From contig NZ_CP037895.1 of NCBI RefSeq assembly GCF_004634385.1, forward strand, positions 1,773,245 through 1,837,244: a DNA stretch of 64,000 nucleotides, in the 5' to 3' direction. Shown here one piece after another: positions 20,369 through 53,191 of the stretch (positions are counted from its first letter, which is position 1; every line of letters starts with the position of its first letter). The translations under genes were made by a program, and so were the position numbers. The notes beneath the pieces are model-generated. The model had not been told where the DNA came from. It saw only the letters and a list, made by a program, of their open reading frames with translations, and ran no database searches. The DNA comes from Thermaerobacter sp. FW80 (lineage in GTDB: Bacteria > Bacillota > Sulfobacillia > Thermaerobacterales > Thermaerobacteraceae).

Positions 20369-21784
20369 TTGGCCGAGGTGTTGCCGGAACTGGTCTGGAT
20401 CGCCGTCCTGGTGCTGCTCAACGCCTTCTTCGCCGCCAGCGAGATCGCCGTCATCGCCGCCCGGGACGCCCGCATCCACCAGCTGGCGGAGGACGGCCAA
20501 CGGGCGGCGCAGGTGGCCCTGCAGCTGATGCGGGACCCGAGCCGCTTCCTCGCCACCATCCAGGTGGGCATCACCCTGGCCGGGTTCCTGGCGAGCGCGT
20601 CGGCAGCGGTGACCCTGGCGCGCCCGCTGGCCGGGTGGCTCGAGGGGGCGGGCCTCGGTGCCCAGGTGGCGGGTCCGACGGCGGTGGCCGTCGTCACGCT
20701 GCTGATCTCCTACGTCAGCCTGGTGCTGGGCGAGCTGGTCCCCAAGCGCTTGGCCCTGCAGAACCCGGAGTCGCTCGCCCTGCGGGTGGCCCGCCCCATC
20801 GCGGCGCTGGCGCGCCTGGCCGGCCCCTTCACCGCGTTGCTCGCCCGCTCGACGAACCTGGTGGTGCGCGCCCTGGGGGGGCGGGTCGAGGAGGTCCAGG
20901 AGCGCGGTCTGACCGAGGAGGAGATCCGCTTCTACGTCGCCGAGCACCAGGACCTGCGCTCGGAGGAGAAGCAGCTGATCCAGGGGGTCTTCGACTTCGG
21001 CGACCGGGTAGTCCGCCAGCTCATGGTGCCGCGGCCCGAGATGAAGACCCTGCCGCGTCACCTGCCCCTGCGCCAGGCGGTGGAGCGGGCGGTGCAGCTC
21101 GGCCACGCCTTCTACCCCGTGACCGGCGAGGGGCCGGATGACATCGTCGGCCAGGTCAGCACCCGGGACCTGCTCCTGTCGGCGCTGGCAGGGGAGGGCG
21201 AGAAGACGGTCGAGGGCTGCATGCAGCCCGTCCGGTTCGTCCCCGAGTCCAAGCTGGCCCTCGATCTCCTGAAGGAGATGAAGCGCGACCACTTCCGGCT
21301 CGCGGTGGTGGTCGACGAGTACGGCGGCGTCGCGGGTCTGGTGACGCTGGACGACCTCCTGGAGGAGATCGTGGGCGAGGTGGGCGGAGGACCGGCCGCC
21401 ACCGGCCAGGTGGCGGCCACGGAGTGGGTGCTGGAGGGCGACACGCCCATCGAGGATGCCAACGAGCGGCTGAACCTGGGCATCCCGGCCAGTCCCCACT
21501 ACGAGACGCTGGCCGGGTTCGTCCTCTACACGCTGGGCCGGCTGCCGGAGGTCGGGGAGGGGTTCGAGCACCGCGGCTGGCACATCGCCGTCGAGCGCCG
21601 CGAGGGGTTGCGGGTGACCGCGGTACGGGTCCGGAAGATCGTGGCGACGGCCGCCGAGAAGGACGGGGGGCTCGCGGCCGGCGCCGCCCGACCTGCGTCG
21701 ATGCCGGCGGGGAGCGTGGTCGCGGCCGACGGCACCGCGGCGAAGGAGGCGGGCGACGATCCCGACGCAACCCGTCCCGGTTGA
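20369..21784 (+). CDS. CNNM/CorC-HlyC family membrane protein with CBS domains
   Basis: From the TTG at 20369 (GGAGGGGGG ten bases upstream) the 471-residue protein has a DUF21 transmembrane domain (about residues 1-180, with NAFFAASEIAVIAARDARI and LVLGELVPKRLALQNPE), a CBS pair (about 200-325, with MVPRPEMKTL and AVVVDEYGGVAGLVTLDDLL) and a CorC/HlyC transporter-associated domain (about 340-420). This family is linked to Mg2+/Co2+ export or resistance rather than true hemolysis. An in-frame ATG at 20315 lacks a ribosome binding site but would add 18 residues. The last 50 residues are low complexity. TATATT at 20279-20284 may be a -10 element. Confidence 0.88.
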   Translation: MAEVLPELVWIAVLVLLNAFFAASEIAVIAARDARIHQLAEDGQRAAQVALQLMRDPSRFLATIQVGITLAGFLASASAAVTLARPLAGWLEGAGLGAQVAGPTAVAVVTLLISYVSLVLGELVPKRLALQNPESLALRVARPIAALARLAGPFTALLARSTNLVVRALGGRVEEVQERGLTEEEIRFYVAEHQDLRSEEKQLIQGVFDFGDRVVRQLMVPRPEMKTLPRHLPLRQAVERAVQLGHAFYPVTGEGPDDIVGQVSTRDLLLSALAGEGEKTVEGCMQPVRFVPESKLALDLLKEMKRDHFRLAVVVDEYGGVAGLVTLDDLLEEIVGEVGGGPAATGQVAATEWVLEGDTPIEDANERLNLGIPASPHYETLAGFVLYTLGRLPEVGEGFEHRGWHIAVERREGLRVTAVRVRKIVATAAEKDGGLAAGAARPASMPAGSVVAADGTAAKEAGDDPDATRPG

Positions 21785-21866
21785 CGAGGCCGCGCCGTCC
21801 GAGGCCGGGACGGTCGCGGGTGCGGGTCCGGCCGCCTTCCATGGATCGGTCCCTCCTGGTAGCCCA

Positions 21867-21895
21867 TTGACAGGGAACACATGTTTGGGTAGGAT
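21867..21895 (+). promoter_or_regulatory. Consensus sigma-A promoter of the repair cluster
   Basis: TTGACA (21867-21872) and TAGGAT (21890-21895) are exactly 17 bp apart. This is one of the best promoter matches in the window. The spacer is occupied by a LexA-type palindrome, so repressor binding would directly exclude RNA polymerase. Confidence 0.85.
21875..21886. promoter_or_regulatory. LexA (Bacillus-type) SOS box
   Basis: GAACACATGTTT matches the Gram-positive LexA consensus GAAC-N4-GTTY. It sits between the -35 and -10 hexamers. The 13-base word GGGAACACATGTT is shared exactly with the site at the imuB-like gene 29 kb away. No other such pair of half-sites was noticed in the window. Confidence 0.85.
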
Positions 21896-22100
21896 GATCC
21901 TGCCTGCGGCCGGGGGGCGGGGCGACCGCGGGGGTGGCGTCTGCGGCGGTCTCCAGGCGCAACCGAACGAGGTCGGCCGGTGCATCGGGCGGGGCGGCCG
22001 CTGGGGTGGGGGTCCTGGGGCGCCCCTCGGTGCCGGCTGCACGGGTGCCCCGCGAGGCCTGCGGGCCGATGGTCAGTCTTTCGAGGATCGGAGGTCGTCC

Positions 22101-22670
22101 ATGGACGGGGTCGTGTTGCTGCCGGTGGCGGCCTATCTCCTCGGCGGCATCCTGCCGGGGGAGTACCTGGTGCGCTGGCGTCGCGGCGCCTCGCCGCGCG
22201 AGCTGGGGGACGAACCCGGCACGGCGGGCACCTGGCGTCAGGCGGGGGCCGCCGCCGGGCTTGCGGTCTTCGCCTTCGACTTCGCCAAGGGGCTGATCCC
22301 CATCTGGCTCGCCGACCGGCTGGGCGCCGGCGGCTGGCTGCTGGTGGCCACGGCGGTGGCTCCCGTCGCGGGACACAACTGGCCGTTGCAACGGGGGTTC
22401 CGTCCCGGCGGGCGAGGGCTGGCCAGCGCCATCGGGGTGACCGTCTACCTGGCCCCGACCGCCCTGATCCCCGCCCTGCTGGTCGGATGCGGGGTGGCGC
22501 TCTGGCGGCGGCGCACCCCGTGGGTGGGCATCGTCGGCTTTCCCCTCGGGCTCGTGCTGATGCTGCTGACCCACACGCCGGGGATCCGCGTGGCCGCCGC
22601 GGTGGCGGCGATGGTCACCGTCGGCTTGCGGTATCTGCAGTGGACCCGCCACCGCGGGCGGTGGATCTAG
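22101..22670 (+). CDS. PlsY-like membrane protein (glycerol-3-phosphate acyltransferase family), divergent
   Basis: The 189-residue protein has about five membrane helices and the layout of PlsY, the acyl-phosphate:glycerol-3-phosphate acyltransferase. The second loop keeps GHNWPLQRGFRPGGRGLASA, resembling the PlsY glycerol-phosphate/acyl-phosphate motif. However, the first loop reads LGDEPGTAGTWR instead of the conserved GSGN-x-GATN, so catalytic competence is doubtful. The ATG has GGAGGT six bases upstream. It is the first gene after the SOS-type promoter and lies 103 bp before the SbcD-like gene, so it may be co-regulated with DNA repair. Confidence 0.75.
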   Translation: MDGVVLLPVAAYLLGGILPGEYLVRWRRGASPRELGDEPGTAGTWRQAGAAAGLAVFAFDFAKGLIPIWLADRLGAGGWLLVATAVAPVAGHNWPLQRGFRPGGRGLASAIGVTVYLAPTALIPALLVGCGVALWRRRTPWVGIVGFPLGLVLMLLTHTPGIRVAAAVAAMVTVGLRYLQWTRHRGRWI

Positions 22671-22773
22671 GGCGGCCGTCGCCCCGCGGCCGGCGCACCG
22701 CCGGCCGTCGGCAGGCGGCGACGCGACACGGGACGGCGGCAGGGACCGCCCGCGCCCTCAGGAGGGACGAGCC

Positions 22774-23913
22774 TTGTTCCGCATCCTGCACCTGGCGGAC
22801 CTGCACCTGGGCTGGGAACCGGCCTTCATGCCGCCACCGCGGGCCGCCGAGCGGCGGCAGCGGCGGGACCGGTTGCTGGAGCGGGCCGTCGACTACGCCC
22901 TGGATCCCGAACACCGCGTCGCCCTGGTGGTGATCGCGGGCGACCTGTTCGAGACCCACCGCCCCGAAGCCGCGCTGGTGACGGCAGTCATCGGCCAGCT
23001 GCGTCGCCTGGAGGCCGCCGGCATCCCGGTGGTCACCGTGCCCGGCAACCACGACGAGATCACGTACCACGACTCGGTGTACCGCCTCTACGGCAGCTCG
23101 TGGCCGGGGGTCCTGGTGCGCAACGCCCTCCCCGACCGGGTCGCGACCCTGACGGTGGCGGGTACCCCCGTCCACCTGTACGGCCTCGCCTACACCGGCG
23201 GCATCACCCCGGCGGGGGTCCCGCTCGCGGACTTCCCCCGGGCGGACGAACCCGGCCTGCACGTGGCCGTCTTCCACGGCACGCTGGGCCGGTGGGGGGG
23301 CGACCGCAGCCTGCCCCTGGACCGCGAGGGCCTGCGACGGGCGGGGTACGACTACGTGGCCCTGGGGCACATCCACCAGGCCCACGAGGAGTGGCTGGGG
23401 CCAACGCTGGCCGCCTACGCCGGCGCCGTCGAGGGCAAGGGCTTCGACGACCCGGGGACCGGGGCGTGGACGCTGGTGGAGGTGGAGCCCGGCCGCGGCG
23501 TGGTGGGGTTGCGACGGGAGCCGGTGGAGGTCCAGCCCGTGGTGACCGTCACGGTGGACGCGGGGCGATTCCCCTCGGTGGAGCGCTTGCGGTCCCACCT
23601 GGAGGACGTGGCCCCGCCCGACGCCATCCTGCGGGTGCGCCTGGAGGGGGTGCCGGCGTTCCCCGTCGATGCCGAGGTGCTGGCCGTGGCGCTGGGCCAC
23701 CGGTTCTTCCACCTCGAGATCGAGGACGCCACGGATCCCGTCAGCCCGGAGCAGCTGGCGGCCTGGGCGGCGGAACCCACGATCCTGGGCCTGTTCGTCA
23801 AGCGGCTCCTGGGCGAGATCGACGCGGCAGCCGACCCCCGCCGGCGGCAGGTCGCCGAGCGGGCCCTGCGGGTGGGGGTCCGCGCCCTGCTGCGGGAGGG
23901 ACCCCGACCGTGA
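22774..23913 (+). CDS. SbcD/YhaO-like metallophosphoesterase (DNA repair exonuclease subunit)
   Basis: The 379-residue protein contains the five calcineurin-type metal motifs in order: LHLADLHLG (Asp8, His10), VIAGDLFE, VPGNHDE, VFHGT and LGHIHQ. They bind two Mn2+ for 3'-5' exonuclease and endonuclease activity in the Mre11/SbcD family. The C-terminal part matches the capping/ATPase-binding region of YhaO/SbcD proteins. The start is TTG at 22774 with AGGAGGGACG upstream. The stop overlaps the start of the large ATPase gene by four bases, as expected for two subunits of one complex. Confidence 0.9.
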   Translation: MFRILHLADLHLGWEPAFMPPPRAAERRQRRDRLLERAVDYALDPEHRVALVVIAGDLFETHRPEAALVTAVIGQLRRLEAAGIPVVTVPGNHDEITYHDSVYRLYGSSWPGVLVRNALPDRVATLTVAGTPVHLYGLAYTGGITPAGVPLADFPRADEPGLHVAVFHGTLGRWGGDRSLPLDREGLRRAGYDYVALGHIHQAHEEWLGPTLAAYAGAVEGKGFDDPGTGAWTLVEVEPGRGVVGLRREPVEVQPVVTVTVDAGRFPSVERLRSHLEDVAPPDAILRVRLEGVPAFPVDAEVLAVALGHRFFHLEIEDATDPVSPEQLAAWAAEPTILGLFVKRLLGEIDAAADPRRRQVAERALRVGVRALLREGPRP

Positions 23914-26900
23914 CGGGCGCAGGTGGTGCGAGGGACCGCCGCGCCCCGGTCCCCGCGGAGGGCGCCGGTGCCGGCGGTCCGGGGGGCGGGGCCGGCGGGG
24001 CGGGGGGGCGATCCCCGCTCCCGGGGGGCGGCCGGGTGCGCTGGCACCGGCTGCGGCTGCAGGGCTTCGGACCCTTCCGGGAGGCCGTCGAGTTCCGGTT
24101 CCCCGACGGCCTGGGGCACTGGGTGGCGCCCAACGAGAGCGGCAAGTCCACCCTGGTCGCCGGGCTCGTGGCGATCCTCTTCGGTCTGCCGGGTTCGTCC
24201 GACCCGTCGCGCTACGGCCAGGCCCGGTACCGGCACTGGGGCGGGGCTGCGCGCTTCGAGGGCGAGCTCGAGTTCACCGCCGTCGACGGGCGGCGCTACC
24301 GCATCCAGCGGGACTTCGCCACCCACCGCGTGCGGCTCGTGCGGCTCGACCCGCGCGGTCCGGTGGAGGAGTGGGCCGGGACCCACAACCCCGCCGCCAA
24401 CCGGCCCGCCCCCGGGTACGAGGAGGCGATCCGGCGGCTGGTGGGGATCGGCTCCCGGGCGGTGTTGCTCGAGACCTTCTGCCTCCAGCAGCCGTTGCCC
24501 GCGCCGGCGGCCGCCGACCGGCAACCCGGGCTGGCCCCCGAGGTGCAGGAGCTGTTGGCCGGTGCCGGCGCCCGCTCGCCCGCCCAGGCGCTGGCCGCCC
24601 TGGAGGAGGCCATCCGGGCGCTCACCCGCTGGACCCGCGAGCTCGGCGTCTCGGGGCAGAACCTGCGGCAGGATCGGGCGATCGAGCAGGTCGAGCAGCG
24701 GATCCGCCAACTGGAGGAGGCCATCGCCCGCGACCGGGAGGCGGCCGATGCCCTCGAGGGGGTGCGGCGGCGCCGGGCGGAGGTGGCGGCACAACGGCAG
24801 GCGCTGGAGCAGCGGCTGGAGCGGTGCCGGGAGCGCCACGACGCCTGGGCCGAGTGGCGTCGCCGCGTGGAACGGTACCGGGACCGGCTGGTCCAGCGGC
24901 GGCGCATCGAGCAGGCGGTGCAGCGGGCCGCCGTGCTGGAGGCGGAGGTCGCGGCCCTCCGGGAGGAGGAGCGCCGTCGCTGGCCGGGCTGGGAGGACTG
25001 GGCGGGCGACGACGAGAGCGGCCTGGCGGCCGCCCTGGACCGGCTGCTGCAGGTGAGCCAGGCGGCCGCGGCCTTGCGGGATCAGCTGGCGGTCCTGGAG
25101 CGCCGGCGGTGGCAGGCCGCCGCGCGGGTGCTGTGGGCGGCGTGGTGTCGCTACCGGTTCCTCGATCGGGCCCTGGCGACGCTGGACCGGCTGGGGCGGC
25201 GTGCCCCGCGGCTGGCGGCGGCGTCGGCGGACGAGCTCGAACGCTTGCGGGCGGCGCCGCGCCAGGAGGCCGAGCTGCAGCGCCAGGCGGCGGCCCTCGC
25301 TGGGGAGCTCCGGGCCCGGGAGCAGGCGCTCGAGGCCCTCGCCGAGGAGGGGCGGGCACTGGCGGCGACCTTTGCCGAGGTCCAACGGTGGACGCCGGAG
25401 ATCGCCGCTGCCGCCGCCGAGGCGGCGGCCCTGCAGGAGGAGATCCAGCGGAGGGAGCATGAGGCGGAGCGGCGACGGGCCGAGATGGTGCAGCGGCGCA
25501 GGCTGGGCCGCCGGGTCGCCCTGGCGGTGGCCGCCGCGGCCGGGGTGGCGGCGGCGACCCTGGGCCGCGCTGTGGAGGCCCCGGGGTGGATGCTCGCCCT
25601 GGCCGTGGGCCTCGCCGCGCTGGGGGTCGGGTGGCTGGCGTGGCGAGGGGTCGCAGGGGCCCAGCGCGTCGCTCCCGCCGTCGAGGAGGGGCTTCGCCAG
25701 CGCCTGGAGGCGGTGCGGGCGCGGCTCGGGCCCTGGGCGCACGAGGCGCCCGCGCGCCTCCGGGAGCTGGAAGGCCGCTTCCGGGAGTGGCAGGCGCGGC
25801 AGGCGAGCCTGGAGGAGCGCCGACGGCGCGAGACCGCGGCGCGTGACGACGTCCGGCGGCGGCTGGAGGCGGTGGAGGCGTCCATCGAAGATCTGCGCCG
25901 CTGGGTCGCCTCCTTCACCGGCGGGGCGGGGGCGGTGGATCGGGTCACGACCTGGTGGGACGCCGTCTGCAGCCTTCGGCGGCGGCTGGAGGAGGAGCGG
26001 ACCCGCTTGGCGGCCGAGCTCTGGGGCGTCCGCTCCGGCCCGCCCCCGTCTGCGGACGAGGTGGCGGAGCTGGTGCTGCCCGAGACCGGTCCGTCGTGGA
26101 GTGCCATGGCTCGCATCGTGGTGGCCGGCGACGCGGACCCTGGAGGGTCCGCGTCGCCGGCGGACCCCCGGGAGGCGCTGGGGGACGGCGCGCCCTCCGG
26201 CGCCTGGACGGTGGGGCGCCTGGTGGAGCAGCTCAGTCGGTGGGACGCCGCGTCCTGGGAGGAACCCGCCGCGGAGGCCGACCGGTGGCGGCGGCTCGAG
26301 GAGCGGGAGGCCGCGTGGCTGCAGGCGCTGGAGGCCAGCTGGTCCCCTGGCGGCGACCCCGAGCCGGCCGCCGTGCCCGATGGGCCGCCGGCCGTCTACG
26401 AACACCTGCAGCGGCTGGAGGTCGAGCAGGCCCAGGAGGCGGAGGCGACGGCTCGTCGCGCGGAGACCCTGGCGCAGGAGCTGGCGTCCCTCACGGCGCA
26501 GGAGGCCGCCCTGCGGGCGCGGTGCCGCGCCCTCCTCGAGGCTTGCGGGGGCGATCCGATCCAGGCCCGCGAGCAGTGGCAGGCCTACGCAGCCCACCGC
26601 CAGCGGCGGCGGGAGCGCGAGGGCGAGCTCAAGGGAGTCCTGGGCGCCTGGGAGACGCCCGACACGGAGGCGCTGGCGGTGCGGCTCGAGCAGTGGCGCG
26701 ATGCCTGCCTGGTCGAGCTGCGGGCCATCGAGGACCTGGCGAAGCGCTTCCCCGAGCTGCCGACGGGGGAGGACCTCGACCCGGCCCAGGCGGCGCACCC
26801 CCTGGCCGGTCTCGAGGAGGAGCGGCGCGGGATCGAGGCCGCGATCCGCCAGGCCGACGCGGAGCTCCAGCACCTGACGGCGCAGGAGGCGGCGCTCCTG

Positions 26901-27536
26901 CAGCAGGCGCCGTTGAACATCGCCCAGGCGGAGCTGGAGCTGGTCGCCTTGCAGGCACGGCGCGAAGCCCTGCGGGACGAGCTGGACGCCCTGGTGCTGG
27001 CCCACCGACACCTGCGGGAGGCGCTGGAGGAGTTCCACGCCACCTACCGGCAGCGGCTGGAGGACGCGGCGAGCCGCTACTTCGCCCGCATCACGGGCCA
27101 ACCGGGGCGGCGGGTGGTGCTGGATGCCCGGTTCCGCCTGTCGGTGCGCGAAGCCGACGGCACGCCGGTGGTGGCCGAGCAGCTCAGCCAGGGGACCCGG
27201 GACCAGCTGTTCTGGGCGCTGCGGGTGGCGGTGGCCGACCTGCTGGCCGGCGACGTCAACCTCCCCTTCGTGCTGGACGACCCCTTCGTCCACTGGGACG
27301 ACCGGCGTCTGGAGGAGGGGCGGCGGATCGTGACCGCCCTGGCCCAGGACCGCCAGGTGGTCGTCTTGTCGCACCGGCCGGCGCTGGCGGCGTGGGGGCA
27401 ACCGGTGGAGCTGGCCGGGGCGCTGCCGGCCACGGCGCAGGAGGTCGCCGTGGCGTCGGCGCCGTCTGCGCCGGCGGGGCCGACGGATGCGGCGGGTGGC
27501 GGGGCGACGCGGGAAGGGGAGGGCGAGGGCTCGTGA
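23910..27536 (+). CDS. SbcC/YhaN-like coiled-coil ATPase with two internal membrane helices
   Basis: The 1208-residue protein has an N-terminal Walker A (APNESGKSTLVAGL, about residues 72-85), a central coiled-coil region of about 800 residues, and a C-terminal ABC signature (LSQGTRDQLFWALR) and Walker B (LPFVLDDPFVHWDD). These form a Rad50/SbcC-type head. In the middle (about residues 531-585) two hydrophobic segments (VALAVAAAAGVAAATLGRAV, WMLALAVGLAALGVGWLAW) interrupt the coiled coil, as in YhaN-like proteins and unlike classical SbcC. I see no CxxC zinc hook. The GTG at 23910 overlaps the nuclease stop and has GGAGGGACC upstream. It probably works with the preceding nuclease on DNA ends, perhaps at the membrane (inference). 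Confidence 0.87.
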   Translation: MTGAGGARDRRAPVPAEGAGAGGPGGGAGGAGGRSPLPGGGRVRWHRLRLQGFGPFREAVEFRFPDGLGHWVAPNESGKSTLVAGLVAILFGLPGSSDPSRYGQARYRHWGGAARFEGELEFTAVDGRRYRIQRDFATHRVRLVRLDPRGPVEEWAGTHNPAANRPAPGYEEAIRRLVGIGSRAVLLETFCLQQPLPAPAAADRQPGLAPEVQELLAGAGARSPAQALAALEEAIRALTRWTRELGVSGQNLRQDRAIEQVEQRIRQLEEAIARDREAADALEGVRRRRAEVAAQRQALEQRLERCRERHDAWAEWRRRVERYRDRLVQRRRIEQAVQRAAVLEAEVAALREEERRRWPGWEDWAGDDESGLAAALDRLLQVSQAAAALRDQLAVLERRRWQAAARVLWAAWCRYRFLDRALATLDRLGRRAPRLAAASADELERLRAAPRQEAELQRQAAALAGELRAREQALEALAEEGRALAATFAEVQRWTPEIAAAAAEAAALQEEIQRREHEAERRRAEMVQRRRLGRRVALAVAAAAGVAAATLGRAVEAPGWMLALAVGLAALGVGWLAWRGVAGAQRVAPAVEEGLRQRLEAVRARLGPWAHEAPARLRELEGRFREWQARQASLEERRRRETAARDDVRRRLEAVEASIEDLRRWVASFTGGAGAVDRVTTWWDAVCSLRRRLEEERTRLAAELWGVRSGPPPSADEVAELVLPETGPSWSAMARIVVAGDADPGGSASPADPREALGDGAPSGAWTVGRLVEQLSRWDAASWEEPAAEADRWRRLEEREAAWLQALEASWSPGGDPEPAAVPDGPPAVYEHLQRLEVEQAQEAEATARRAETLAQELASLTAQEAALRARCRALLEACGGDPIQAREQWQAYAAHRQRRREREGELKGVLGAWETPDTEALAVRLEQWRDACLVELRAIEDLAKRFPELPTGEDLDPAQAAHPLAGLEEERRGIEAAIRQADAELQHLTAQEAALLQQAPLNIAQAELELVALQARREALRDELDALVLAHRHLREALEEFHATYRQRLEDAASRYFARITGQPGRRVVLDARFRLSVREADGTPVVAEQLSQGTRDQLFWALRVAVADLLAGDVNLPFVLDDPFVHWDDRRLEEGRRIVTALAQDRQVVVLSHRPALAAWGQPVELAGALPATAQEVAVASAPSAPAGPTDAAGGGATREGEGEGS

Positions 27537-30500
27537 GCCTGCGGCTGATTCTCGGCCGGGCGGGGGCCGGCAAGACCCATCACTGCCTGGAGGCGGTGGC
27601 GCGGGAGGAGGCGGCCCGTCCGGCCGGACCGCCCCTGATCCTCCTGGTGCCCGAGCAGGCCACGTTCCAGATGGAGCAGGCGCTGCTGGCCGCGGTCCAT
27701 CGCCATGGCCGGCGGGGGTTCGCCCGGGCGCGGGTGGCGAGCTTCCAGCGGTTGGCCTGGTGGGTGCAGCAGGAGGCCGGCGGGGCGGCGACGCCCACCG
27801 TCACCGAACTGGGCAAGCGGCTGATCCTGCGCGCGCTGGTCGCCCGCGAGGCCCCGCGGCTCGCCTTGTTCGGCCAGGTGGCCGACCGGCCCGGCTTCAT
27901 CGAGCGACTGGTCGCCACCCTCGGCGAGCTGGCGGCCTACGGGATCGACGCCGACGCCCTGCGGGCCCGCCATGCGGCCCTGGTGGGCGAGGGCCGCGAG
28001 GGCCTCCTCGCCGTCAAGCTGCACGATCTCGCCCTGATCCTGGAGGCGTACCAAGACTTTCTGGCCGAACACCACCTGTACGACCCCGTCCAGGTGCTGG
28101 AACGGGTGGCGCGGTGCATCCACGACGCCGCCTGGCTGCAGGGGGCCCGCGTCTGGGTCGACGGCTTCACCGGGTTCACCCCCGGCGAGCTGCGGGTCCT
28201 GGAGGCCCTCCTGCGGGTGGCGGACCGCGTCGAGGTCAGTCTCTGCCTGGACCCTCAGGAGGCGCCCTGGGCCGTGGGCGGCGCCGGCCAGGCGGGACAA
28301 GGGGACGACGAGTCGGCGCTCTTCCACCCCACGGCGGTGACGGCGCGGCAGTTGCTGGACATCGCACGGCGGGCGGGGGTGGCCGTCGCCCCCGCCCGGG
28401 TCCTCCCGGAAGCGGGCGGGGGCATGCCGCGCTTCCGCAACCCGGCCCTGGCCCACCTGGAGCGGGAGCTGTTCCAGTTCCCCGGCCGCCGCTTCGCCGG
28501 TCCGCCCGAGGGCATCACGCTGGTGGCCGCGCCCGACCGGCGGGCGGAGGTGGCCGCGGCCGCGCGGGAGATGCTGCGCCTGGCCCGGGAAGAGGGATAC
28601 CGGTTCCGGGACATGGTGGTCATCGTGCGGGATCTGGAGACCTACCACGACCTCTTGGCGACCGCCTGCGCGGAACACGGCATCCCCCTCTTCGTCGACC
28701 GCCGTCGCCCGGTGGCCCACCACCCCCTGCTGGAGCTGGTGCGGGCGGCGCTGGAGGTGGTGGCGGGCGACTGGCCCTACGAGGCGGTCTTCCGCTACCT
28801 CAAGACCGACCTGGTGCCCGTGCCGCGGGGGGAAGTGGACCGGCTGGAGAACTACGTGCTGGCCTTCGGCATCCGGGGCTCGCGGTGGTATCGAGGGGGC
28901 CCGTGGCGCTGGTGGCGCCGCGAGGCCCTGGAGGCGGACGTCGAGCCGACGCCGGTGCAGCAGGCGGAGCTCGAGGCCATCAACCGCATCCGCGACGAGG
29001 CCACCGGGCACCTGCGCCGGTTCTTCCAGCGGGTGGCGCCGGCCCGCCGGCAACCGGTGCCGGCGGCGGAGCTGGCGGCGGCCCTGTACCAGCTGCTGGT
29101 CGACCTCGACGTCCCCGCCCGGCTCCAGGGGTGGAGCGAGGAGGCCGAGGGGGCCGGCGACCTCGAGGCGGCCCAGGAGCACCTCCAGGTCTGGAACGGC
29201 GTCGCCGAGCTGCTGGAGCAGGTGGGAGCCAGCCTGCCCGGGATCGCCCTGACGGCGGCCGAGTTCCTGCGCGTGCTGGAGGCGGGCATGGAGGGCCTGC
29301 GGGTCGGCCTCATCCCGCCGGGCCTCGACCAGGTGGTGGCGGGCAGCGTGGAGCGCTCGCGGCACCCCAGCGCCCGGGCCGCGTTCGTCCTGGGCGCCAC
29401 CGACGACGCCTTCCCCCGCCGCGTCGAGGAGGATGCCATCTTCACCGATCAGGAGCGGGACGAACTGGCCGAGCGCGGCGTCGAGCTGGGGCCGCCCGGG
29501 CGGGTGCGGGCGCTGCACGAGCAGTACCACACCTATGTGGCGCTGACCCGGGCGCGGGACCGCCTCTGGGTGAGCTACCCGCTGGGCGACGAGGAGGGCC
29601 GGGCGGTGGCGCCGGCCTGGCTCACGCGGCGGCTTCGGGTCCTCCTGCCCGGCCTCGCCGTGAGTTCCGCGACGGCCGACGGGACGGACGACGTGGCGAC
29701 GCCGGCGCAGGGCATCGACCGGCTGGCCCGGCTGCTGGCCCGCCACCGGGATGCAATGGGGGTCTCCGCGGGGCCATGGGCTCCGCCCGCCCCGCGCCGC
29801 GGGGACCCGCCTCCCACCTGGGCGGTGCTCTATCAGTGGGCCGTCACCGACCCCGCCGTCCGGCCCCGGGCCTTGCACTCGCTGGCCGCCCTGGCCCATG
29901 CCAACCGGCCTCGTCCCCTGGGCCGCGAGCTGGGGCGGCAGCTCTATGCCCGCCCGGCCGCGGCCGGATGGCTGCTGCGGACCAGCGTCAGCCGGCTGGA
30001 GCGGTTCGCCGCCTGTCCGTTCCAGCACTTCGCGGCCCATGGGCTCGGGCTGCGGGAGCGCGTGGTCGGGCGGCTCGACGCGCCGCGCCTGGGCCGGATC
30101 CACCATGCCGCCCTCAGCCTCCTGGCGCGGAAGGTGTGGGAGGAGGGACTGGACTGGAAGGACCTTGATGAGTCCCGGCTCGAGGCGATGGTCGCCGCGT
30201 GCCTGGACGAGATCGGGCCCCGGCTGGCCCAGGAGCTGGCCGTGGAGACGGCGTACCACGCGCACCTGCTGGAGCGGACGCGGCGCATCCTCGGCCAGAC
30301 CGCCCGTCGCCTGGCGGAGCACGCCCGTCGCGGCGACTTCCGGCCGCTGGCGGTGGAGGTGGACTTCGGGCCCGATCCCGACGCGCCGCTGCTAGTCGAG
30401 CCGTGGCGGCTGCCCTCGGGCGAGCGCCTGGCCCTGCAAGGCCGGATCGACCGCATCGACGGGGCCCGGACCGCGTCGGGCCGCTGGCTCGTCCGCGTCG

Positions 30501-31354
30501 TCGACTACAAGAGCAGCGCCCACGACCTGCCGCTGGACCAGGTCTACCATGGGCTGGCCTTGCAACTGCCGCTGTACCTGCTGGTGGCCGTCCGGGCGGG
30601 CGCCGCCTTGGGGATCGACCCCGGGGGGGCGCCCGGGCGGCCGGGAGCCGGATCGCCGGTCCCGGCCCCGGACGGCGGCCCGCCCGGGAGCCCGGTCCCG
30701 GCGGCCGCGGTGGAGCCGGCGGCGCTGCTGTACTTCCCGGTCCACGACCCGTTCCTCGACACCGAGGGTCCGTTGCCGGCGGAGGAGGCCGCCCGGCGGC
30801 GGGCGCGCCGGCTCCTGCGGGCCCAGGGCTGGGTGGTCGACGACGCGGAGGTCATCCGGGCCCATGACCGCGAGCTCAAGCCCGAGACCCTGATCCCGGT
30901 GGAGCTCAGGAGGGATGGGACGCCCACGGCCTGGGCGCGGGTCCTCCAGCCGGGGGAGATGGAGGATCTCTTCCGGCTGGTGGAGGCGCGGGTCCAGGCG
31001 ATGGCGACGGCCATCCTGGCGGGGCGGGTGGAGGTGGCGCCGTACCGCCTCAAGGAACGCTCGCCCTGCGGCACCTGCGCCTTCCGCGCGCTCTGCCAGT
31101 TCGACCCGCGCCTGCCGGGCAACCGCTACCGGGTGATGCGGCCCCTGCGTCCCCAAGAGGTCTGGCAGCGGGTGCGGCAGGCCCACGCCCCGGACGGCGG
31201 CGGTGGGGCGTCCACCGGCCTGCCGGCCGGCCGGGCGGCCCCGCGGCCGCCGGACCGGCCCGCCCCGGCGGACGCCGACGGATCCCACGGGGGCGGACCC
31301 GCCGGGCCCGTCCCCGCTGCCGCGGAGGGAGGGGCGGACGATGACCGTCGGTGA
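27533..31354 (+). CDS. addB: ATP-dependent helicase/nuclease subunit B (AddB)
   Basis: The 1273-residue protein starts with a Walker A (ILGRAGAGKTHHC, residues 6-18) and the AddB pattern LILLVPEQATFQMEQALL. The C-terminal nuclease domain has VVDYKSSAHDLPLDQVYHGL, with the RecB-family Asp and Lys. An iron-sulfur cluster is indicated by one cysteine in ERFAACPFQHF and three more in CGTCAFRALCQFDP. AddB is the Chi-scanning and 5'-strand nuclease partner in double-strand break processing. The GTG overlaps the stop of the preceding ATPase by four bases and its end overlaps addA by 14 bp. The overlap chain indicates tight co-expression. Confidence 0.94.
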   Translation: MSLRLILGRAGAGKTHHCLEAVAREEAARPAGPPLILLVPEQATFQMEQALLAAVHRHGRRGFARARVASFQRLAWWVQQEAGGAATPTVTELGKRLILRALVAREAPRLALFGQVADRPGFIERLVATLGELAAYGIDADALRARHAALVGEGREGLLAVKLHDLALILEAYQDFLAEHHLYDPVQVLERVARCIHDAAWLQGARVWVDGFTGFTPGELRVLEALLRVADRVEVSLCLDPQEAPWAVGGAGQAGQGDDESALFHPTAVTARQLLDIARRAGVAVAPARVLPEAGGGMPRFRNPALAHLERELFQFPGRRFAGPPEGITLVAAPDRRAEVAAAAREMLRLAREEGYRFRDMVVIVRDLETYHDLLATACAEHGIPLFVDRRRPVAHHPLLELVRAALEVVAGDWPYEAVFRYLKTDLVPVPRGEVDRLENYVLAFGIRGSRWYRGGPWRWWRREALEADVEPTPVQQAELEAINRIRDEATGHLRRFFQRVAPARRQPVPAAELAAALYQLLVDLDVPARLQGWSEEAEGAGDLEAAQEHLQVWNGVAELLEQVGASLPGIALTAAEFLRVLEAGMEGLRVGLIPPGLDQVVAGSVERSRHPSARAAFVLGATDDAFPRRVEEDAIFTDQERDELAERGVELGPPGRVRALHEQYHTYVALTRARDRLWVSYPLGDEEGRAVAPAWLTRRLRVLLPGLAVSSATADGTDDVATPAQGIDRLARLLARHRDAMGVSAGPWAPPAPRRGDPPPTWAVLYQWAVTDPAVRPRALHSLAALAHANRPRPLGRELGRQLYARPAAAGWLLRTSVSRLERFAACPFQHFAAHGLGLRERVVGRLDAPRLGRIHHAALSLLARKVWEEGLDWKDLDESRLEAMVAACLDEIGPRLAQELAVETAYHAHLLERTRRILGQTARRLAEHARRGDFRPLAVEVDFGPDPDAPLLVEPWRLPSGERLALQGRIDRIDGARTASGRWLVRVVDYKSSAHDLPLDQVYHGLALQLPLYLLVAVRAGAALGIDPGGAPGRPGAGSPVPAPDGGPPGSPVPAAAVEPAALLYFPVHDPFLDTEGPLPAEEAARRRARRLLRAQGWVVDDAEVIRAHDRELKPETLIPVELRRDGTPTAWARVLQPGEMEDLFRLVEARVQAMATAILAGRVEVAPYRLKERSPCGTCAFRALCQFDPRLPGNRYRVMRPLRPQEVWQRVRQAHAPDGGGGASTGLPAGRAAPRPPDRPAPADADGSHGGGPAGPVPAAAEGGADDDRR

Positions 31355-34300
31355 ACCCGCAGGCGGCCGAGGGGGGCCGGCCCGGGCCGCAGCCACCGGC
31401 GGCGCGGCGTCGCGCCCGGTGGCGGCCGAGGGCGGCGCGCGAACGGGCACGCGGTGGACCGAGGAACAGTGGCAGGCCATCGCCCTGCGCGGTGCGAACC
31501 TGCTGGTCAGCGCCGCCGCGGGTGCCGGCAAGACCTCGGTGCTGGTGGAGCGCGTCGTGCGCCGGGTGCTGGACCCCGCGGATCCGCTGGACGTCGACCG
31601 GGTCTTGGTGGTGACGTTCACCGAGGCGGCCGCCGCGCAGATGAAGGAGCGGATCCGCGAGCGGCTGGAGGCGGCCCTGGCGCAGCACCCCGACGACCGG
31701 CGGCTGCGCCGCCAGCTGGCGCTGCTGGGACGGGCCAGCATCTCGACGGTGCACGCCTTCTGCCTGCGCATCATCCGACAGTACTTCTACCGCCTCGGCC
31801 TCGACCCGGCGACGAAGGTGGCCGGCGAGCACGAAGCCCAGCTGCTGCGCCACGAGGTGCTGGACGACCTCTTCGAACGGCGCTACGCGGCCGCCGCCGC
31901 CGACTTCTTGGCCCTGGTGGAGGCGTACGGCGGCCGCCGCGGCGACGAGGACCTGCGGCAGCTGGTCCTGGCCCTCTACGAGAGCGCCTATGCGCAGCCC
32001 TGGCCGGAGGCCTGGCTCGACGCGCTGGTGCGCATGTACCGGGAGGCCGGCGCCGACCTGGACGGCGCGCGGTGGCTGCAGGCGGCGCGGGAGGGGGTGG
32101 CCCGCCGCCTGCAGCGCCACGCCATGGCCCTGGCCGGCCTCGCCGCCCAGTGTCGCCGGCCGGGAGGACCCGCGGTCTGGGCCGATACGCTGGAAGGCGA
32201 CGCCCGTCGGCTGGCATCCTTGGCCGCCGAGGCCGCGGGAGTGGGGTGGGAGGGGCTGGGGCAGATCCTGGAGGCGGCCACCCAGTGGCCCCGCCTCCCC
32301 GGCAACCCCGAGGCCAAGGCGAACCCGTTCCACAAACGGATCCAACGGCGCCGGGAGGACATCAAGCGGGACCTCCGCGGGCTGCGCGAGGGCCTATGGG
32401 CCCGCCCGGCGGCCGACGTCGCCGCCGACCTCGAACGCCTCGCGCCCCACGTGGCCACCCTGGTCGATCTGGTCAAGGCGTACGCCGCCTCCCTCCAAGT
32501 CGCCAAGCGGGACCGCAGCCTGATGGACTTCACCGACATGGAGCACTACGCCCTGGCGCTCCTGGCCGACCCCGCCCATCCCGGTGCCCTGGTGCCGTCC
32601 GCCGTGGCCCGCGAGCTCCGCCGCCACTACCAGGAGGTCCTGGTGGACGAGTACCAGGACATCAATCCGCTGCAGGACGCCATCCTCCGCCTCGTGGCGC
32701 GGGACGGCGAGGACGGAGCGCCGAACCTCTTCCTGGTGGGCGACGTCAAGCAGAGCATCTATGCCTTCCGCCAGGCCGAACCCGCCCTGTTCCTCGGCCG
32801 CTACCGCGCCTACGAGCCGGCGCCCCCGGTGCCGGCGCCGGCGGACGCCGCGCCGGCACCGGGCTGGCGCATCGAGCTCAACGCCAACTTCCGCAGCCGG
32901 CCGGCCATCCTCACGGCGGTCAACGACCTCTTCGCGCGCCTCATGGTGCAGGACCTGGGGGGTCTCGCCTACGACGAGGCCGCCCGGCTCCGCCCGCGGG
33001 CCGCCTTCCCCGACCCGCCCGCGGGCACGGCGGCCGGCGAGGCCCCGGTGGAGGTCTACGTGCTGGAACGGAAGCCCGAGGCGCTGGACGACGACCTCCC
33101 CGACGCCCTGGCCGCCGGCTCCATCCCCGTCCCGGGCCTCGAGGCGGCGGACGGCGGGCCGGCCGCCGGACCGTCGCATCCCGAGGCGGAGGCTGGGCTC
33201 CGCCCAGGGGAACCCGGTGGGCGCGGTGCCGGGGAACCCGGACCGGAACTGCGCGACGGCGCGGAGGAGGGGGATGGGGAGGCGGGTCCGGGGTCCCACG
33301 GGACGGGGGACCAGGAGGGCAGCGAGGACGAGGAGGTCGACCCGACCGTCCTCGAGCGGGAGGCCCGGCTGGTGGCCTGGCGCATCCGGCGTCTGGTGGA
33401 GGGGGCACCGGGCCAGCCGCCGCTGCACGTCTGGGATCCCGACCTGGAGCGCTACCGGCCGGTGCGGTACCGGGACGTGGTGGTCCTGCTGCGCAGCGCC
33501 AAGGTGCGGGCGGCCACCTTCGTGGAGGTGATGTCCCGCCACGGGGTGCCGGTCTACACCCGCTCCCGGACCGGCTACCTCACCGCGCCGGAGGTGGAGA
33601 TGGTCCTCGCCCTGCTGCAGGTGCTGGACAACCCCCGCCAGGACATCCCGCTGGCCGCGGTGCTGCGCTCGCCGGTGGTGGGGCTGGACGCGGACGACCT
33701 GGCCCGGATCCGGGTGGCCGCCCGCGACGTCCCCTTCTACGAGGCGGTCTGCCGCGTCGCCGGCTGGGATCCCGACCGGGAGGAACCGGCTGCGCCGCGG
33801 GATCAGGCGTGCCAGGCGGCGGCCTCGGACGCCCGCCCGGGGCCGCCGGCCGCCGCTGTGGCGCCCGCCCTCCTGAGCCCCCGGGCGGCGGGCGGCCCCG
33901 GCGATGCCGCAGCGGCGGGGGGCACCGGCGATGCGGGACCGGCGGGGGGCGCAGGCAATGCCGGACCGGCGGGCGGCCTCGGTGATGCAGGAGCGGCGGG
34001 GGGCACTTCCGGCCCGGGCGACCCCAGGGCCGCAGGGGGCGACCCCGGGGGGCCGGCCGCCGGCGGCACCGGCTGGGCCGGTGCCGCCGGCGAGGGCTTG
34101 GCGGAGCGTCTGCGGGCGTTCCTGGCCGACCTGGCCCGCTGGCGGGGCCTGGCCCGCCGCTGGCCGCTCTCCCGGGTGATCCAGGCGATCTACGACGAGA
34201 CGGGCCTGCTGACCTTCGTCGCCGCCCTGCCGGCGGGCGAACAGCGCCGGGCCAACCTCGAGGCGCTGCGGGACCGGGCCCGCCAGTTCGACCGGTTCGC

Positions 34301-36038
34301 CCGGCAGGGGCTCTTCCGCTTCCTCCGGTTCATCGAGCGGCTGCGCGAGCGGGGTGACGACCTGGGCACCGCCCCGGCCCTGGGGGAGAACGAGGACGTG
34401 GTCCGGGTGATGACCATCCACCAGAGCAAGGGGCTGGAGTTCCCGGTGGTGGTGGTCGCGGACCTGGGGGCGCGATTCCCCGAGGAGAGGGGCCACGCCC
34501 TGCTGCACCGGGAGCTGGGGCTCGGGCTCAAGGTGGCGGACCCGGAACTGCGGATCCGCTATCCCAGCCTGGCCTACGAGGCGGTCCGGGCGCGGCAGCG
34601 CCTGGACACCCTGGCCGAGGAGCTGCGCATCCTCTACGTCGCCCTGACGCGGGCGCGGGAGCGGCTGATCCTGGTCGGATCCGTCCGCGACCTGCCCACC
34701 GCCGCGGCCGCGTGGTGGGCGGCGGCCGGCGGTTGGGCCGGCGACGGGCGGGGGCCCGAGCCCCTGCCGGCGGCGATCCTCGAGGGCGCCAGGAGCTTCC
34801 TGGACTGGATCGGGACCGCCCTCATCCACCATCCCGACGCCACCCCCTTGCGCCGGCTGGCCCTGGGCGGCCAGGGGCGCGGCCGGCCCCAGGACCCGGA
34901 CCCTCCCGGCGCGCCCTCCCCCGCTGGCCCGGGGCGCGGGGCGGTCGAGCCGCCGCCGGGCCCGGGGTGGACGTCCCGCTGGGCCTGGGCGCTGCTCCTG
35001 CGGCCGGCGATGCCGGCGGCGGCACCGGACGACCCCGCCGGGCCCGCGCCCCGGGAGGCGACGGGACCCGCGCCCGCACCGGCCGACGGCGGTCCCGGCG
35101 ACCGCTCCGCTGCACCGCCGGCGGACGGATCGTGTAGGTCGCAGCCGGCCGCCTCGGATGGGACCGGGGATCGGGAGGCGGAGGAGGCGACGCCGGGCGC
35201 GGTGGAAGGTGTCCCGGTCCCCGGGTGGCTGGAGCCCTTGCTGCGCGGGGAGCCGCTACCGCCGGGCGCCGTCGACCGCGAGGCGGTGGAGGCGCTGCGG
35301 CGGCGCCTGGCGTGGCGGTATCCCTTCGCTGCCCTGGCCAACCGCTTCGCCAAGCGGTCCGTCAGCGAACTCGAGGGCCGTGCCGACCCGGAGTGGCAGG
35401 CCTACCCGTTGCCGGCCGAGCTGCGCCGGGGGCTCCGGCAGCCGCGCCTGGACGCCGCGGCGGCGCCGGCTGTCGGGGCAGCCCTCCCGCTGAGCGGCGC
35501 CGAGCGGGGCACGGCGACCCACCGCGTCCTGCAGCACCTGGACCTGACGGGCCCGCTGGACGTCGACGACGTCGCCCGCCAGATCGAGGCCATGGTGGGA
35601 CGGGGCCTGCTGACGCCGGCGGAGGCGGAGGTCGTCGACCGGCAGGCGCTGGCCCGCTTCTTCGCCGGTCCCCTGGGGCGGCGGCTCCGCCGCGCGCCCG
35701 AGCGGGTGCGGCGGGAGTGGATGTTCACCCTGGGTGTGCCCGCCACGGAGCTCTACCCCGACCTGGCGGCCGGCGGGACGGAGGGGGGCACCGGCGCGGA
35801 TGCGGACGTGGTGGTCGTCCAGGGGGTCGTGGACTGCTTCGTGGAGGAGGACGACGGCCTGCTCCTGCTGGACTTCAAGACCGACGAGCCGCGGGGGCGG
35901 ACGCTGGAGGCGATGGCCGCCCTCTACGCGGGGCAGGTCCGCTTCTACCGCCGGGCGCTCAGGGAGATCACGGGCCGCCCCGTCAAGGAGGCCTACCTCG
36001 TCTTCCTGGCCGCAGGAGCCGCCGTGCCGGTGCCCTGA
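31341..36038 (+). CDS. addA: ATP-dependent helicase/nuclease subunit A (AddA)
   Basis: The 1565-residue UvrD-type helicase shows motif I SAAAGAGKTSVLVERVV (about residues 55-71), motif II VLVDEYQDINPLQDAIL, motif III LVGDVKQSIYAFRQAEP, motif V VMTIHQSKGLEFPVVVV and motif VI ILYVALTRARERLILVG. The C-terminal nuclease domain has LLLLDFKTDEPRG and GQVRFYRRAL. It is longer than the usual 1200-1250 residues because of low-complexity inserts, notably at 33170-33340, 33800-34085 (with four 27-bp repeats) and 34880-35215. These inserts fall between helicase motifs. The ATG has GGAGGGAGGGG upstream. With AddB it resects broken DNA ends for RecA. Confidence 0.94.
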   Translation: MTVGEPAGGRGGPARAAATGGAASRPVAAEGGARTGTRWTEEQWQAIALRGANLLVSAAAGAGKTSVLVERVVRRVLDPADPLDVDRVLVVTFTEAAAAQMKERIRERLEAALAQHPDDRRLRRQLALLGRASISTVHAFCLRIIRQYFYRLGLDPATKVAGEHEAQLLRHEVLDDLFERRYAAAAADFLALVEAYGGRRGDEDLRQLVLALYESAYAQPWPEAWLDALVRMYREAGADLDGARWLQAAREGVARRLQRHAMALAGLAAQCRRPGGPAVWADTLEGDARRLASLAAEAAGVGWEGLGQILEAATQWPRLPGNPEAKANPFHKRIQRRREDIKRDLRGLREGLWARPAADVAADLERLAPHVATLVDLVKAYAASLQVAKRDRSLMDFTDMEHYALALLADPAHPGALVPSAVARELRRHYQEVLVDEYQDINPLQDAILRLVARDGEDGAPNLFLVGDVKQSIYAFRQAEPALFLGRYRAYEPAPPVPAPADAAPAPGWRIELNANFRSRPAILTAVNDLFARLMVQDLGGLAYDEAARLRPRAAFPDPPAGTAAGEAPVEVYVLERKPEALDDDLPDALAAGSIPVPGLEAADGGPAAGPSHPEAEAGLRPGEPGGRGAGEPGPELRDGAEEGDGEAGPGSHGTGDQEGSEDEEVDPTVLEREARLVAWRIRRLVEGAPGQPPLHVWDPDLERYRPVRYRDVVVLLRSAKVRAATFVEVMSRHGVPVYTRSRTGYLTAPEVEMVLALLQVLDNPRQDIPLAAVLRSPVVGLDADDLARIRVAARDVPFYEAVCRVAGWDPDREEPAAPRDQACQAAASDARPGPPAAAVAPALLSPRAAGGPGDAAAAGGTGDAGPAGGAGNAGPAGGLGDAGAAGGTSGPGDPRAAGGDPGGPAAGGTGWAGAAGEGLAERLRAFLADLARWRGLARRWPLSRVIQAIYDETGLLTFVAALPAGEQRRANLEALRDRARQFDRFARQGLFRFLRFIERLRERGDDLGTAPALGENEDVVRVMTIHQSKGLEFPVVVVADLGARFPEERGHALLHRELGLGLKVADPELRIRYPSLAYEAVRARQRLDTLAEELRILYVALTRARERLILVGSVRDLPTAAAAWWAAAGGWAGDGRGPEPLPAAILEGARSFLDWIGTALIHHPDATPLRRLALGGQGRGRPQDPDPPGAPSPAGPGRGAVEPPPGPGWTSRWAWALLLRPAMPAAAPDDPAGPAPREATGPAPAPADGGPGDRSAAPPADGSCRSQPAASDGTGDREAEEATPGAVEGVPVPGWLEPLLRGEPLPPGAVDREAVEALRRRLAWRYPFAALANRFAKRSVSELEGRADPEWQAYPLPAELRRGLRQPRLDAAAAPAVGAALPLSGAERGTATHRVLQHLDLTGPLDVDDVARQIEAMVGRGLLTPAEAEVVDRQALARFFAGPLGRRLRRAPERVRREWMFTLGVPATELYPDLAAGGTEGGTGADADVVVVQGVVDCFVEEDDGLLLLDFKTDEPRGRTLEAMAALYAGQVRFYRRALREITGRPVKEAYLVFLAAGAAVPVP
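33900..34007 (+). repeat. Four in-frame 27-bp tandem repeats inside addA
   Basis: Four consecutive 27-bp units (starting 33900, 33927, 33954 and 33981), each beginning GGyrATGC, encode variants of the nonapeptide GDAGPAGGx. The unit length is a multiple of three, so expansion does not disturb the frame. Confidence 0.85.
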
Positions 36039-36259
36039 TCCCGGCCGACCGGGTCGCGCCGACGGGACCGACGGGCGACGGTGACGCGGAGCGGGTCGTT
36101 CGGCCCCGCCGGGATCCCTGAGCGGCTCCCCGGTTCGCCGGTGCCCGTCCCTCGGTCCCGTCGCGGTCCCATCGCGGCCGGGCCGATCCGGCCGCGGCCG
36201 CCGGCGGGACGGCGACGCAAGCCCCACGAGCCATACTAGCCGCCAAGGGGGTGACGGTC

Positions 36260-36634
36260 ATGGAGGGAGCGGATCGGGACGAACCGGCAGGACGCAGGGC
36301 CGAGGGACGAGCGGTGGCGAAGGCCGACGGGCGAGGGCGGGAGGGCGCGGGGGCAGCCCCCCACGGCAGCGTCCCCGGCCGGGTTCGTCGGGGGGCCGGT
36401 GGCCCCGTGGTGCCCGTGGACGGCGGCGTCCCGGGACCGCGGTCGCCCGAGGCCGCCCGGCTGTGGGGCGCCACCTACGGCGCCGATCCGGAGAGCGGGA
36501 CGGACTACGAGGCGACCCGGCAGTCCACGGAGTCGGTGCGGGCGGCCCACCGCATCGCCCGCGGCCCCGGCAACCCCCGCGGCGCGGGGGACGGCCGGCG
36601 CTCCGACGAAGGTGCGCCCACCGGCGGCGGGTGA
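36260..36634 (+). CDS. Small hypothetical protein
   Basis: I do not recognise this 124-residue protein. It is highly charged and Gly/Arg-rich in its first half. The second half (PEAARLWGATYGADPESGTD, YEATRQSTESVRAAHRIARG) looks more conserved and helical. AAGGGGG precedes the ATG at 36260 by nine bases, which favours it over the GTG at 36251. It ends six bases before the convergent exporter gene. Basic disordered proteins of this type often bind nucleic acid or coat spores, but nothing here shows which. Confidence 0.5.
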   Translation: MEGADRDEPAGRRAEGRAVAKADGRGREGAGAAPHGSVPGRVRRGAGGPVVPVDGGVPGPRSPEAARLWGATYGADPESGTDYEATRQSTESVRAAHRIARGPGNPRGAGDGRRSDEGAPTGGG

Positions 36635-51256: not shown

Positions 51257-53017
51257 ATGGGGAACACATGTTCGATGTCGAGGCCGCCCCTGGCCTTCGT
51301 GCGGCTCGAGGGGGCATGGGTGACGGCGGCCGGCGTGGGGGATCGGCCGGCGGTGGTGGCCGCCGGGCCGGTGGTGGTCGACGTGGCGCCGCTCGCCCGG
51401 GCCGAGGGCGTGCGTCCCGGCATGCGGGTGCGGACCGCGCGGCGACTGCTCCCCGGCCTCGTGGTGGTGCCGCGGGATGCCATCGACCCCCTGGCGGCCC
51501 TGGAGCCCCTTTACGAGGCGCTGCTGGGCGTCTCCCCGCGGGTCGAGCCGGTGGTCGATCGCCTGGCGGCCCTCTGTGAGCTGGATGCCTCGACGACCGT
51601 CGAGGAGGTGGTCGCCGTCCTCCAGGCGGCGGGCCTGGGGCGACGGGGACACCGGCTGGTCCTGGGGATCGGCCACGGCCGGCTGGTGGCGCGCCTGGCG
51701 GCGCGGGTGGCGGCACGGTCCCGAGCCGCCATCGCCGGCGAGGAGGCCCTGGGTGGAGATCCGGGACCGCCGGCTCGCCGGGCGGTGGGCCGGCGGGGTC
51801 GAGGCCCGCAGCGGCACGAAGCGGCCGGGGGCGCCGCCTCGGCAGGCGGCCGGGCCGCTGCGCAGCGGAGCAGCGGGGTCGCCGGACCGGCCGGCGGTGC
51901 CGGTCCGGCCTCCCGAGGCGTCGCGCCGGCCGGGATGCGTGCCGGACCGGCCCATGAGAGCGGGACCGCCGCCCCGAGGGTCGCCATGCCGGCAGCCGAC
52001 GCCGGCGGATCCCCGGGGGTGGCGAGCTGCCGGGTTCCTCCCGGCCAGGAGGCGGCCTTCCTGGCCCCCATGCCCGTGACCGTCCTGGAGGAGGAGGTGC
52101 CGCCGGCGGCGCGCCGCCGGTTGCAACGCCTCGGCCTCATGACCCTGGGCGACGTGGCTGCGGCGCCCCAGCAGGTGGTGTCCCGGGCCGTGGGCGACCT
52201 GGCCCCCCTCCTGCAAGCCTGGTGCCGCGGCGACGACCGCCGGCCCGTGGTGCCGGGCTTCCCGCCGCCGGGCGTCACCGCCGCCCTCGCCGCGCCCCCG
52301 GAGCTCCCGGAAGATCGCCGGACCGGCTGGTGGCCGGGGCGCCTGCCGCACCTGGCCCGGGAAGTGGCGTCCCGCCTGGCGGCCGCCGGCCGAGGGGGAC
52401 GGCTCGTGGTCCTGCAGGGGGAGCGGGCCCGGGTCCGCCGCTACCTGCCCCAGGCCGTGGCCGACGGCGACGCGCTGGCTCGCACCGCCCTGGACCTGTA
52501 CCGCCGCCTGCTGGGGGACGAACCGGCCCCGGCGCGGCTGGCGCTGACGGTGACCGCCCTGGAGCCGGTCGCCCGCCAGCTCGCCCTGGGCGACCCGGCG
52601 GCCCTGGCCACCCAAGACCGCGCAACCCCTGCCATGGGAGGGCGGCCGCCGGCCGGGGAGCCAACGCAGCCGACGCGAGGGCACCGCGTCCGACAGGGGC
52701 GGGAGCCGGTCCCCGCCGCTCCCGGGGAGCGGACACCGGCGGCGCGGGCCCCGGCGGGTCGGGGCCCGGCAGAGCCGGCGTCGGCGGGTCGGGGCCCGGC
52801 AGAGCCGGCGTCGGCGGGCCGGGGGGCGGCAGGGCCGGCCCTGTCGGTGCCGGCCTTGCCGGTGCTGGTGGACGAGCTGGCCCGCCGCTACCCGGGGCGG
52901 GTCTTCTGGGGCCGCGAACGTCCCGCGACGCGGCGGGAGCGCCAGCTCGCCTACTGGGATCCCTGGCGCGGGGCGCCCGAAGGGCTGGGGCCTCGAGCCG
53001 ACGGGCTGGGGCCTTGA
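51257..53017 (+). CDS. imuB: ImuB-like Y-family polymerase homologue (probably catalytically inactive)
   Basis: The protein (586 residues from ATG 51257) has a Y-family palm/finger region (about 10-160) and a little-finger-like domain around residues 280-440. The catalytic carboxylates are absent: the first motif reads AFVRLEGAWVTAA instead of DMDxFFAxVE, and the SxDE motif is replaced by VVDRLAAL. This is the state of ImuB, an adaptor for DnaE2 in SOS mutagenesis. A 115-residue low-complexity insert (about 150-265) and 30-bp repeats near the 3' end are present. ATG 51257 would give an almost leaderless mRNA; ATG 51275 is the alternative. A DUF6504 gene and dnaE2 follow. Confidence 0.82.
   Translation: MGNTCSMSRPPLAFVRLEGAWVTAAGVGDRPAVVAAGPVVVDVAPLARAEGVRPGMRVRTARRLLPGLVVVPRDAIDPLAALEPLYEALLGVSPRVEPVVDRLAALCELDASTTVEEVVAVLQAAGLGRRGHRLVLGIGHGRLVARLAARVAARSRAAIAGEEALGGDPGPPARRAVGRRGRGPQRHEAAGGAASAGGRAAAQRSSGVAGPAGGAGPASRGVAPAGMRAGPAHESGTAAPRVAMPAADAGGSPGVASCRVPPGQEAAFLAPMPVTVLEEEVPPAARRRLQRLGLMTLGDVAAAPQQVVSRAVGDLAPLLQAWCRGDDRRPVVPGFPPPGVTAALAAPPELPEDRRTGWWPGRLPHLAREVASRLAAAGRGGRLVVLQGERARVRRYLPQAVADGDALARTALDLYRRLLGDEPAPARLALTVTALEPVARQLALGDPAALATQDRATPAMGGRPPAGEPTQPTRGHRVRQGREPVPAAPGERTPAARAPAGRGPAEPASAGRGPAEPASAGRGAAGPALSVPALPVLVDELARRYPGRVFWGRERPATRRERQLAYWDPWRGAPEGLGPRADGLGP
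51262..51273. promoter_or_regulatory. LexA (Bacillus-type) SOS box
   Basis: GAACACATGTTC is a perfect palindromic LexA operator (GAAC-N4-GTTC) lying across the predicted transcription start and the first codons of the imuB-like gene. Confidence 0.92.
52754..52830 (+). repeat. 30-bp in-frame tandem repeat in the imuB-like gene
   Basis: Two full units beginning GCGGGTCGGGGCCCGGCAGA (52754 and 52784) and a partial third encode AGRGPAEPAS repeats. Confidence 0.8.
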
Positions 53018-53160: not shown

Positions 53161-53191
53161 TTGGGCCGCCTGCGGCGGGAGGCGCAGAGGC

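Follow-up and report, generated by a model that had tools for sequence, protein, structure and literature searches.

In the textbook SOS circuit, LexA does not control most of the end-resection enzymes by which the inducing signal is generated, and addAB is not known as a standard LexA target in Bacillus subtilis. The locus studied here lies in a window of 64,000 nucleotides from the high-GC Firmicute Thermaerobacter sp. FW80 (the whole stretch of DNA that was analysed, to which all coordinates refer). It raises the question of whether a SbcD-SbcC-like pair and AddAB can be held together behind a single LexA operator, as was claimed in an earlier note on this DNA. On the evidence given below, the cluster is probably (about 80%) a LexA-repressed operon for DNA-end processing.

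A sigma70-type promoter precedes the cluster on the plus strand (21867-21895), with a -35 element TTGACA (21867-21872) and a -10 element TAGGAT (21890-21895) separated by a spacer of 17 nt. The spacer contains, on the same strand, the sequence GGAACACATGTTTG (21874-21887), which matches the Gram-positive LexA consensus CGAACRNRYGTTYG in 13/14 positions, the single mismatch being located in the second half-site (GTTT instead of GTTC), and which fits the strict pattern GAACRNRYGTTY. Both the promoter and the box in its spacer had been described in the earlier note and were found exactly where it had placed them. When the region 21500-36400 was scanned for sigma70-type promoters, exactly this one site was detected, compared to 0.0 +/- 0.2 in shuffled sequences. 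Neither T-tract terminators nor internal promoters were detected in the cluster by scanning this region; strong independent promoters there had been named in the note as grounds for abandoning its claim.

With up to two mismatches allowed, the window contained 10 box matches versus 12.0 expected, no excess over chance, so that little weight can be given to the box by itself; more weight attaches to its coincidence with the sole promoter of the scanned region. In the whole genome, GAACRNRYGTTY occurred 30 times on both strands versus 11 for the reversed pattern, used as the control for genome-wide counts, and the corresponding numbers in three sister species of the genus (G001, G002 and G003) were 27:2, 9:0 and 14:2. 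The sequence GGAACACATGTTTG is very probably a real LexA box.

Five genes follow on the plus strand, starting 206 bp after the -10 element with that of a PlsY-like membrane protein, a divergent paralogue of 189 aa (22101-22670; Pfam G3P_acyltransf, 2.9e-25). After a gap of 103 bp come a YhaO-like nuclease of the SbcD/Mre11 family (22774-23913; 379 aa, TTG start; Metallophos, 1.6e-15), a YhaN-like ATPase of the SbcC/Rad50 type (23910-27536; matches to AAA_27/AAA_23 and Rad50 profiles), addB (27533-31354; 1273 aa; ADDB_N, 1.2e-77) and addA (31341-36038; 1565 aa), and the overlaps of 4, 4 and 14 bp that had been reported among these last four genes are correct. The SbcC-like protein would have 1208 aa if translated from the GTG at 23910, or 1166 aa from the GTG at 24036, where its conserved core starts. 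A GTGA overlap between sbcD and sbcC is kept in this genome and in all three sister species, and the linker between both genes, of variable length in the four genomes, maintains an open frame through in-frame indels, which supports translation from 23910. The LexA box is located 887 bp before sbcD in this genome, a distance that, like its one mismatch, counts against the operon. As a strong GC hairpin that lacks a T-tract lies in the 103-bp gap (z -1.6, unremarkable for its composition), read-through from plsY to sbcD is an assumption, and it is in this sense that we infer co-transcription across the gap.

The PlsY-like protein scored 66 bits with TIGR00023, below the cut-off of 137 bits, whereas all four genomes encode a true PlsY with 172-174 bits at another locus, so the former would not count as a full-score PlsY acyltransferase. 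The SbcD-like protein, besides which no SbcD-type nuclease was detected in the genome, also remained under the cut-off of its family (TIGR00619, 57 bits versus 77.65), with its motifs DLH, GDLFE, GNHD and GHIH intact. The AddAB proteins have the features expected of this helicase-nuclease, to which they can be assigned by sequence: AddA is over the cut-off of its family (addA_Gpos, 1007 bits) and shows the helicase motifs and the nuclease motif DFKT, while AddB is just under its own (addB_Gpos, 863 bits versus 904) and shows the nuclease motif VVDYK and the Fe-S cysteines. As recJ, recQ and recN are not among the genes of the cluster, the earlier description of the entire end-resection machinery behind one operator was too broad.

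The label SbcC/YhaN-like proposed for the ATPase needed to be narrowed. Walker A, LSxG and Walker B motifs are present and the Rad50 heads are matched, but no CxxC zinc hook was found in this protein or in its 18 homologues, two of which are cut by contig ends. The protein, which matches AAA_27 (1.4e-7) and is encoded next to a Mre11-like gene, is not a canonical SbcC and may be a hook-less protein of the YhaN type, a placement made from domain matches and the absence of the hook rather than from a tree with the Bacillus YhaO and YhaN proteins. Near the middle of the coiled coil, residues 494-536 of its core form a pair of hydrophobic helices with a turn between them, and a hydrophobic stretch at these residues is present in 17/17 aligned sequences. 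An AlphaFold model places helices at 454-513 and 517-539, connected by a short turn, with low local confidence. This hydrophobic hairpin may anchor the protein in the membrane, close to where a hook would be expected.

The same five genes in identical order were found in the three sister species, all of them with a perfect GAACN4GTTC box inside the promoter of the cluster; box conservation in related genomes was the check that the earlier note had suggested, and it held on the orthologous block in 3/3 cases. The position of the operator relative to plsY differs, being before this gene in the present genome and after it in the sisters, where promoters of the form TTGAC(C/G)-17/18-TAAT(A/C)T are located 133-147 bp before sbcD. 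A sister-type operator promoter before sbcD is absent in the present genome, and no remnant of a LexA box was found in its plsY-sbcD gap. As the box follows plsY in the sisters, what is conserved is the control of sbcD-sbcC-addB-addA. Of the five genes that had been placed behind the operator, these four therefore stand in 4/4 genomes, whereas plsY is included here only and, judged by its position, is a passenger, located behind the operator in this species alone of the four. The trees of AddB and SbcD gave a fork of this genome (G000), G002 and G001 plus G003 without branching order, so that the shift of the operator is likely, though not certain, to have arisen in this species.

The genome encodes a LexA protein (256 bits) with the Ala-Gly cleavage site and the Ser/Lys residues. 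A second LexA box, GGAACACATGTTCG (51261-51274, plus strand), precedes imuB-dnaE2 (IMS, 2e-08, and DNA_pol3_alpha, 7e-79, respectively), at the same place as in all three sisters, and served as a positive control in the same window as the cluster. In all four genomes, the same type of box was also found before a LysM gene divergent from lexA, which by sequence resembles YneA, and between a radical-SAM gene and uvrC, the names uvrC and YneA being assigned by sequence and context and not by family search; recA has a weaker conserved box, CAAACTATTGTTCG. The cluster would thus fit a LexA regulon of the Gram-positive type, with a promoter box, a conserved operator, a cleavable LexA and co-targets. 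Because the operator is conserved in 4/4 genomes, lexA is present and the other targets are coherent, SOS control of sbcD-sbcC-addB-addA across the genus is strongly supported, as predicted from these genomes.

Other loci of the window were also noted. The region 51261-57143, with a LexA box, imuB, a small ORF (53219-53434) and dnaE2, forms a genus-conserved SOS mutagenesis cassette. Directly after dnaE2, a serine recombinase gene is followed by small helix-turn-helix/excisionase-like and RelE/ParE-like genes (57323-58658), the last two being assigned by sequence reading only, as are two ORFs on the minus strand (60249-63994) that resemble a Cas3-type helicase and a CRISPR subunit.

Boxes of this type were also found at mobile genes. 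A perfect GAACN4GTTC box was present in the promoters of lone IS607-type TnpB genes, without TnpA in front, in 15/15 distinct copies (L194, L203, L209, L211 and L219 in the present genome; L195, L196, L201, L202, L204, L205, L207, L208, L210 and L214 in the sisters), with the central 4 bp varying among copies, and in 0/7 TnpB genes with an upstream IS607 TnpA (L197, L200, L206, L213, L215, L217 and L221). This distribution suggests that the RNA-guided nuclease TnpB may be under SOS control. A second multicopy TnpB-like family of about 490 aa, with a weak guided_TnpB match and no Pfam match, also carries a box in its promoter (L007, L008, L018, L019, L020 and L022 in the present genome; L124, L143, L148 and L155 in G001). 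No link between TnpB and a LexA operator was found in the literature searched, and this association is possibly more novel than that of the repair cluster.

Two other explanations of the cluster promoter have to be weighed against LexA control of the whole unit. The operator and plsY have swapped places relative to the sisters, and there is a GC hairpin in the 103-bp gap, as would be expected if the LexA promoter served mainly the PlsY-like gene, with sbcD to addA transcribed without SOS control from an unrecognised promoter in the gap. This arrangement is improbable: no promoter- or terminator-like site was found between plsY and sbcD, SOS control of the block is conserved in the genus and, as the sister-type operator promoter of sbcD is gone here, no promoter other than the upstream one can be seen for these four genes.

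It is still less probable that GGAACACATGTTTG matches by chance and that LexA does not control the cluster in this genome. Its coincidence with the sole promoter detected over 15 kb, its fit to the strict GAACRNRYGTTY, for which the control gave about one third as many matches genome-wide, and the perfect box on the orthologous block of three sister species argue against chance, in spite of a window count at two mismatches that is not above it and of the GTTT in the second half-site.

If the cluster is a LexA-repressed operon, LexA bound to 21874-21887 would lie over the spacer of the single strong promoter, holding down transcription of the plsY-like gene, sbcD, sbcC, addB and addA. When double-strand breaks occur, AddAB together with the Mre11-Rad50-like pair would generate single-stranded DNA, on which RecA would load, leading to self-cleavage of LexA and derepression of the operon. 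Since the products of the operon would make the inducing single-stranded DNA, the loop would be self-reinforcing, and the extra end-processing enzyme would feed back positively on the SOS signal as well as on repair. LexA binding, induction and feedback are put forward here as predictions, under which the alarm-raising machinery is probably made in larger amounts once the SOS response has begun.

The cluster sbcD-sbcC-addB-addA recurs in eight other Bacillota contigs and, from this distribution, can be taken to be older than the genus. A genome of the same family (G004) was outside the promoter comparison, its contig starting inside sbcC. In those relatives whose lexA was looked up, this box type was present near lexA too, but a clear box before the cluster was missing in most of them, which speaks against the operon reading, and in more distant Bacillota no strict LexA box was detected upstream of either the cluster or addB. 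Two weak candidates, CAAACGGATGTTTG located 46 bp before sbcD in L070 and CAAACGTGTGTTCT located 68 bp before addB in Paenibacillus L076, were not counted. In a genome from another family of the class (G047), a LexA-type box is followed by thpR, recA, recX, sbcD, sbcC, addB and addA, all co-directional (L112:2080-17431), and a relative of it (G068) has the same genes on a contig that ends before the box position. The case of G047 is weaker, with a single 13/14 box and a high background (14 matches versus 10 for the control in that genome), yet recA is an expected LexA target. From these arrangements, it would appear that LexA control of the cluster was acquired on two occasions and in different ways.

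In Bacillus, the pair YhaO-YhaN (SbcEF) consists of a Mre11-like nuclease gene and a gene for a SbcC-like ATPase of the AAA_27/YhaN type, a combination that the cluster resembles, and is not known to be linked to addAB. In B. subtilis, addBA and sbcDC are adjacent, in a different order from that found here, and SbcDC is canonical. The closest regulatory precedent is the LexA-controlled sbcDC operon of Staphylococcus aureus, with the box CGAACAAATGTTCT (PMC11442139), which resembles the present case in that a Mre11/Rad50-type pair forms one operon whose sbcD promoter carries a LexA box of the Gram-positive kind. However, rexBA (addBA) forms a separate two-gene operon in S. aureus (PMC7683395), whereas here addB-addA belongs to the same unit as sbcD-sbcC, and the SbcC-like protein lacks the zinc hook. 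In Lactobacillaceae, addBA was computationally predicted to be LexA-controlled (PMC3616900), a likeness that extends to addB-addA only, as no sbcDC is named in the predicted unit, and in a paper on the LexA regulon of C. difficile both sbcDC and addBA are unmentioned. The design is less unusual than the earlier note had claimed, each half having its own precedent in S. aureus or Lactobacillaceae. The new part is modest: one operator over both halves, conserved in the genus.

For the class as a whole, a tentative and rather doubtful proposal would be that LexA captured the cluster at least twice, through its own operator and through recA-recX as in G047, and that the resection ATPase is tethered to the membrane by the helical hairpin close to the zinc-hook position. 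If true, the SOS response would raise the level of an end-processing centre anchored in the membrane, which would itself supply the signal that induces it. If both resection systems share one LexA operator, there would be positive feedback at the input of the SOS circuit, and its threshold and duration should be altered as a result; the four genomes of the genus, with one relocated operator, offer a direct comparative test.
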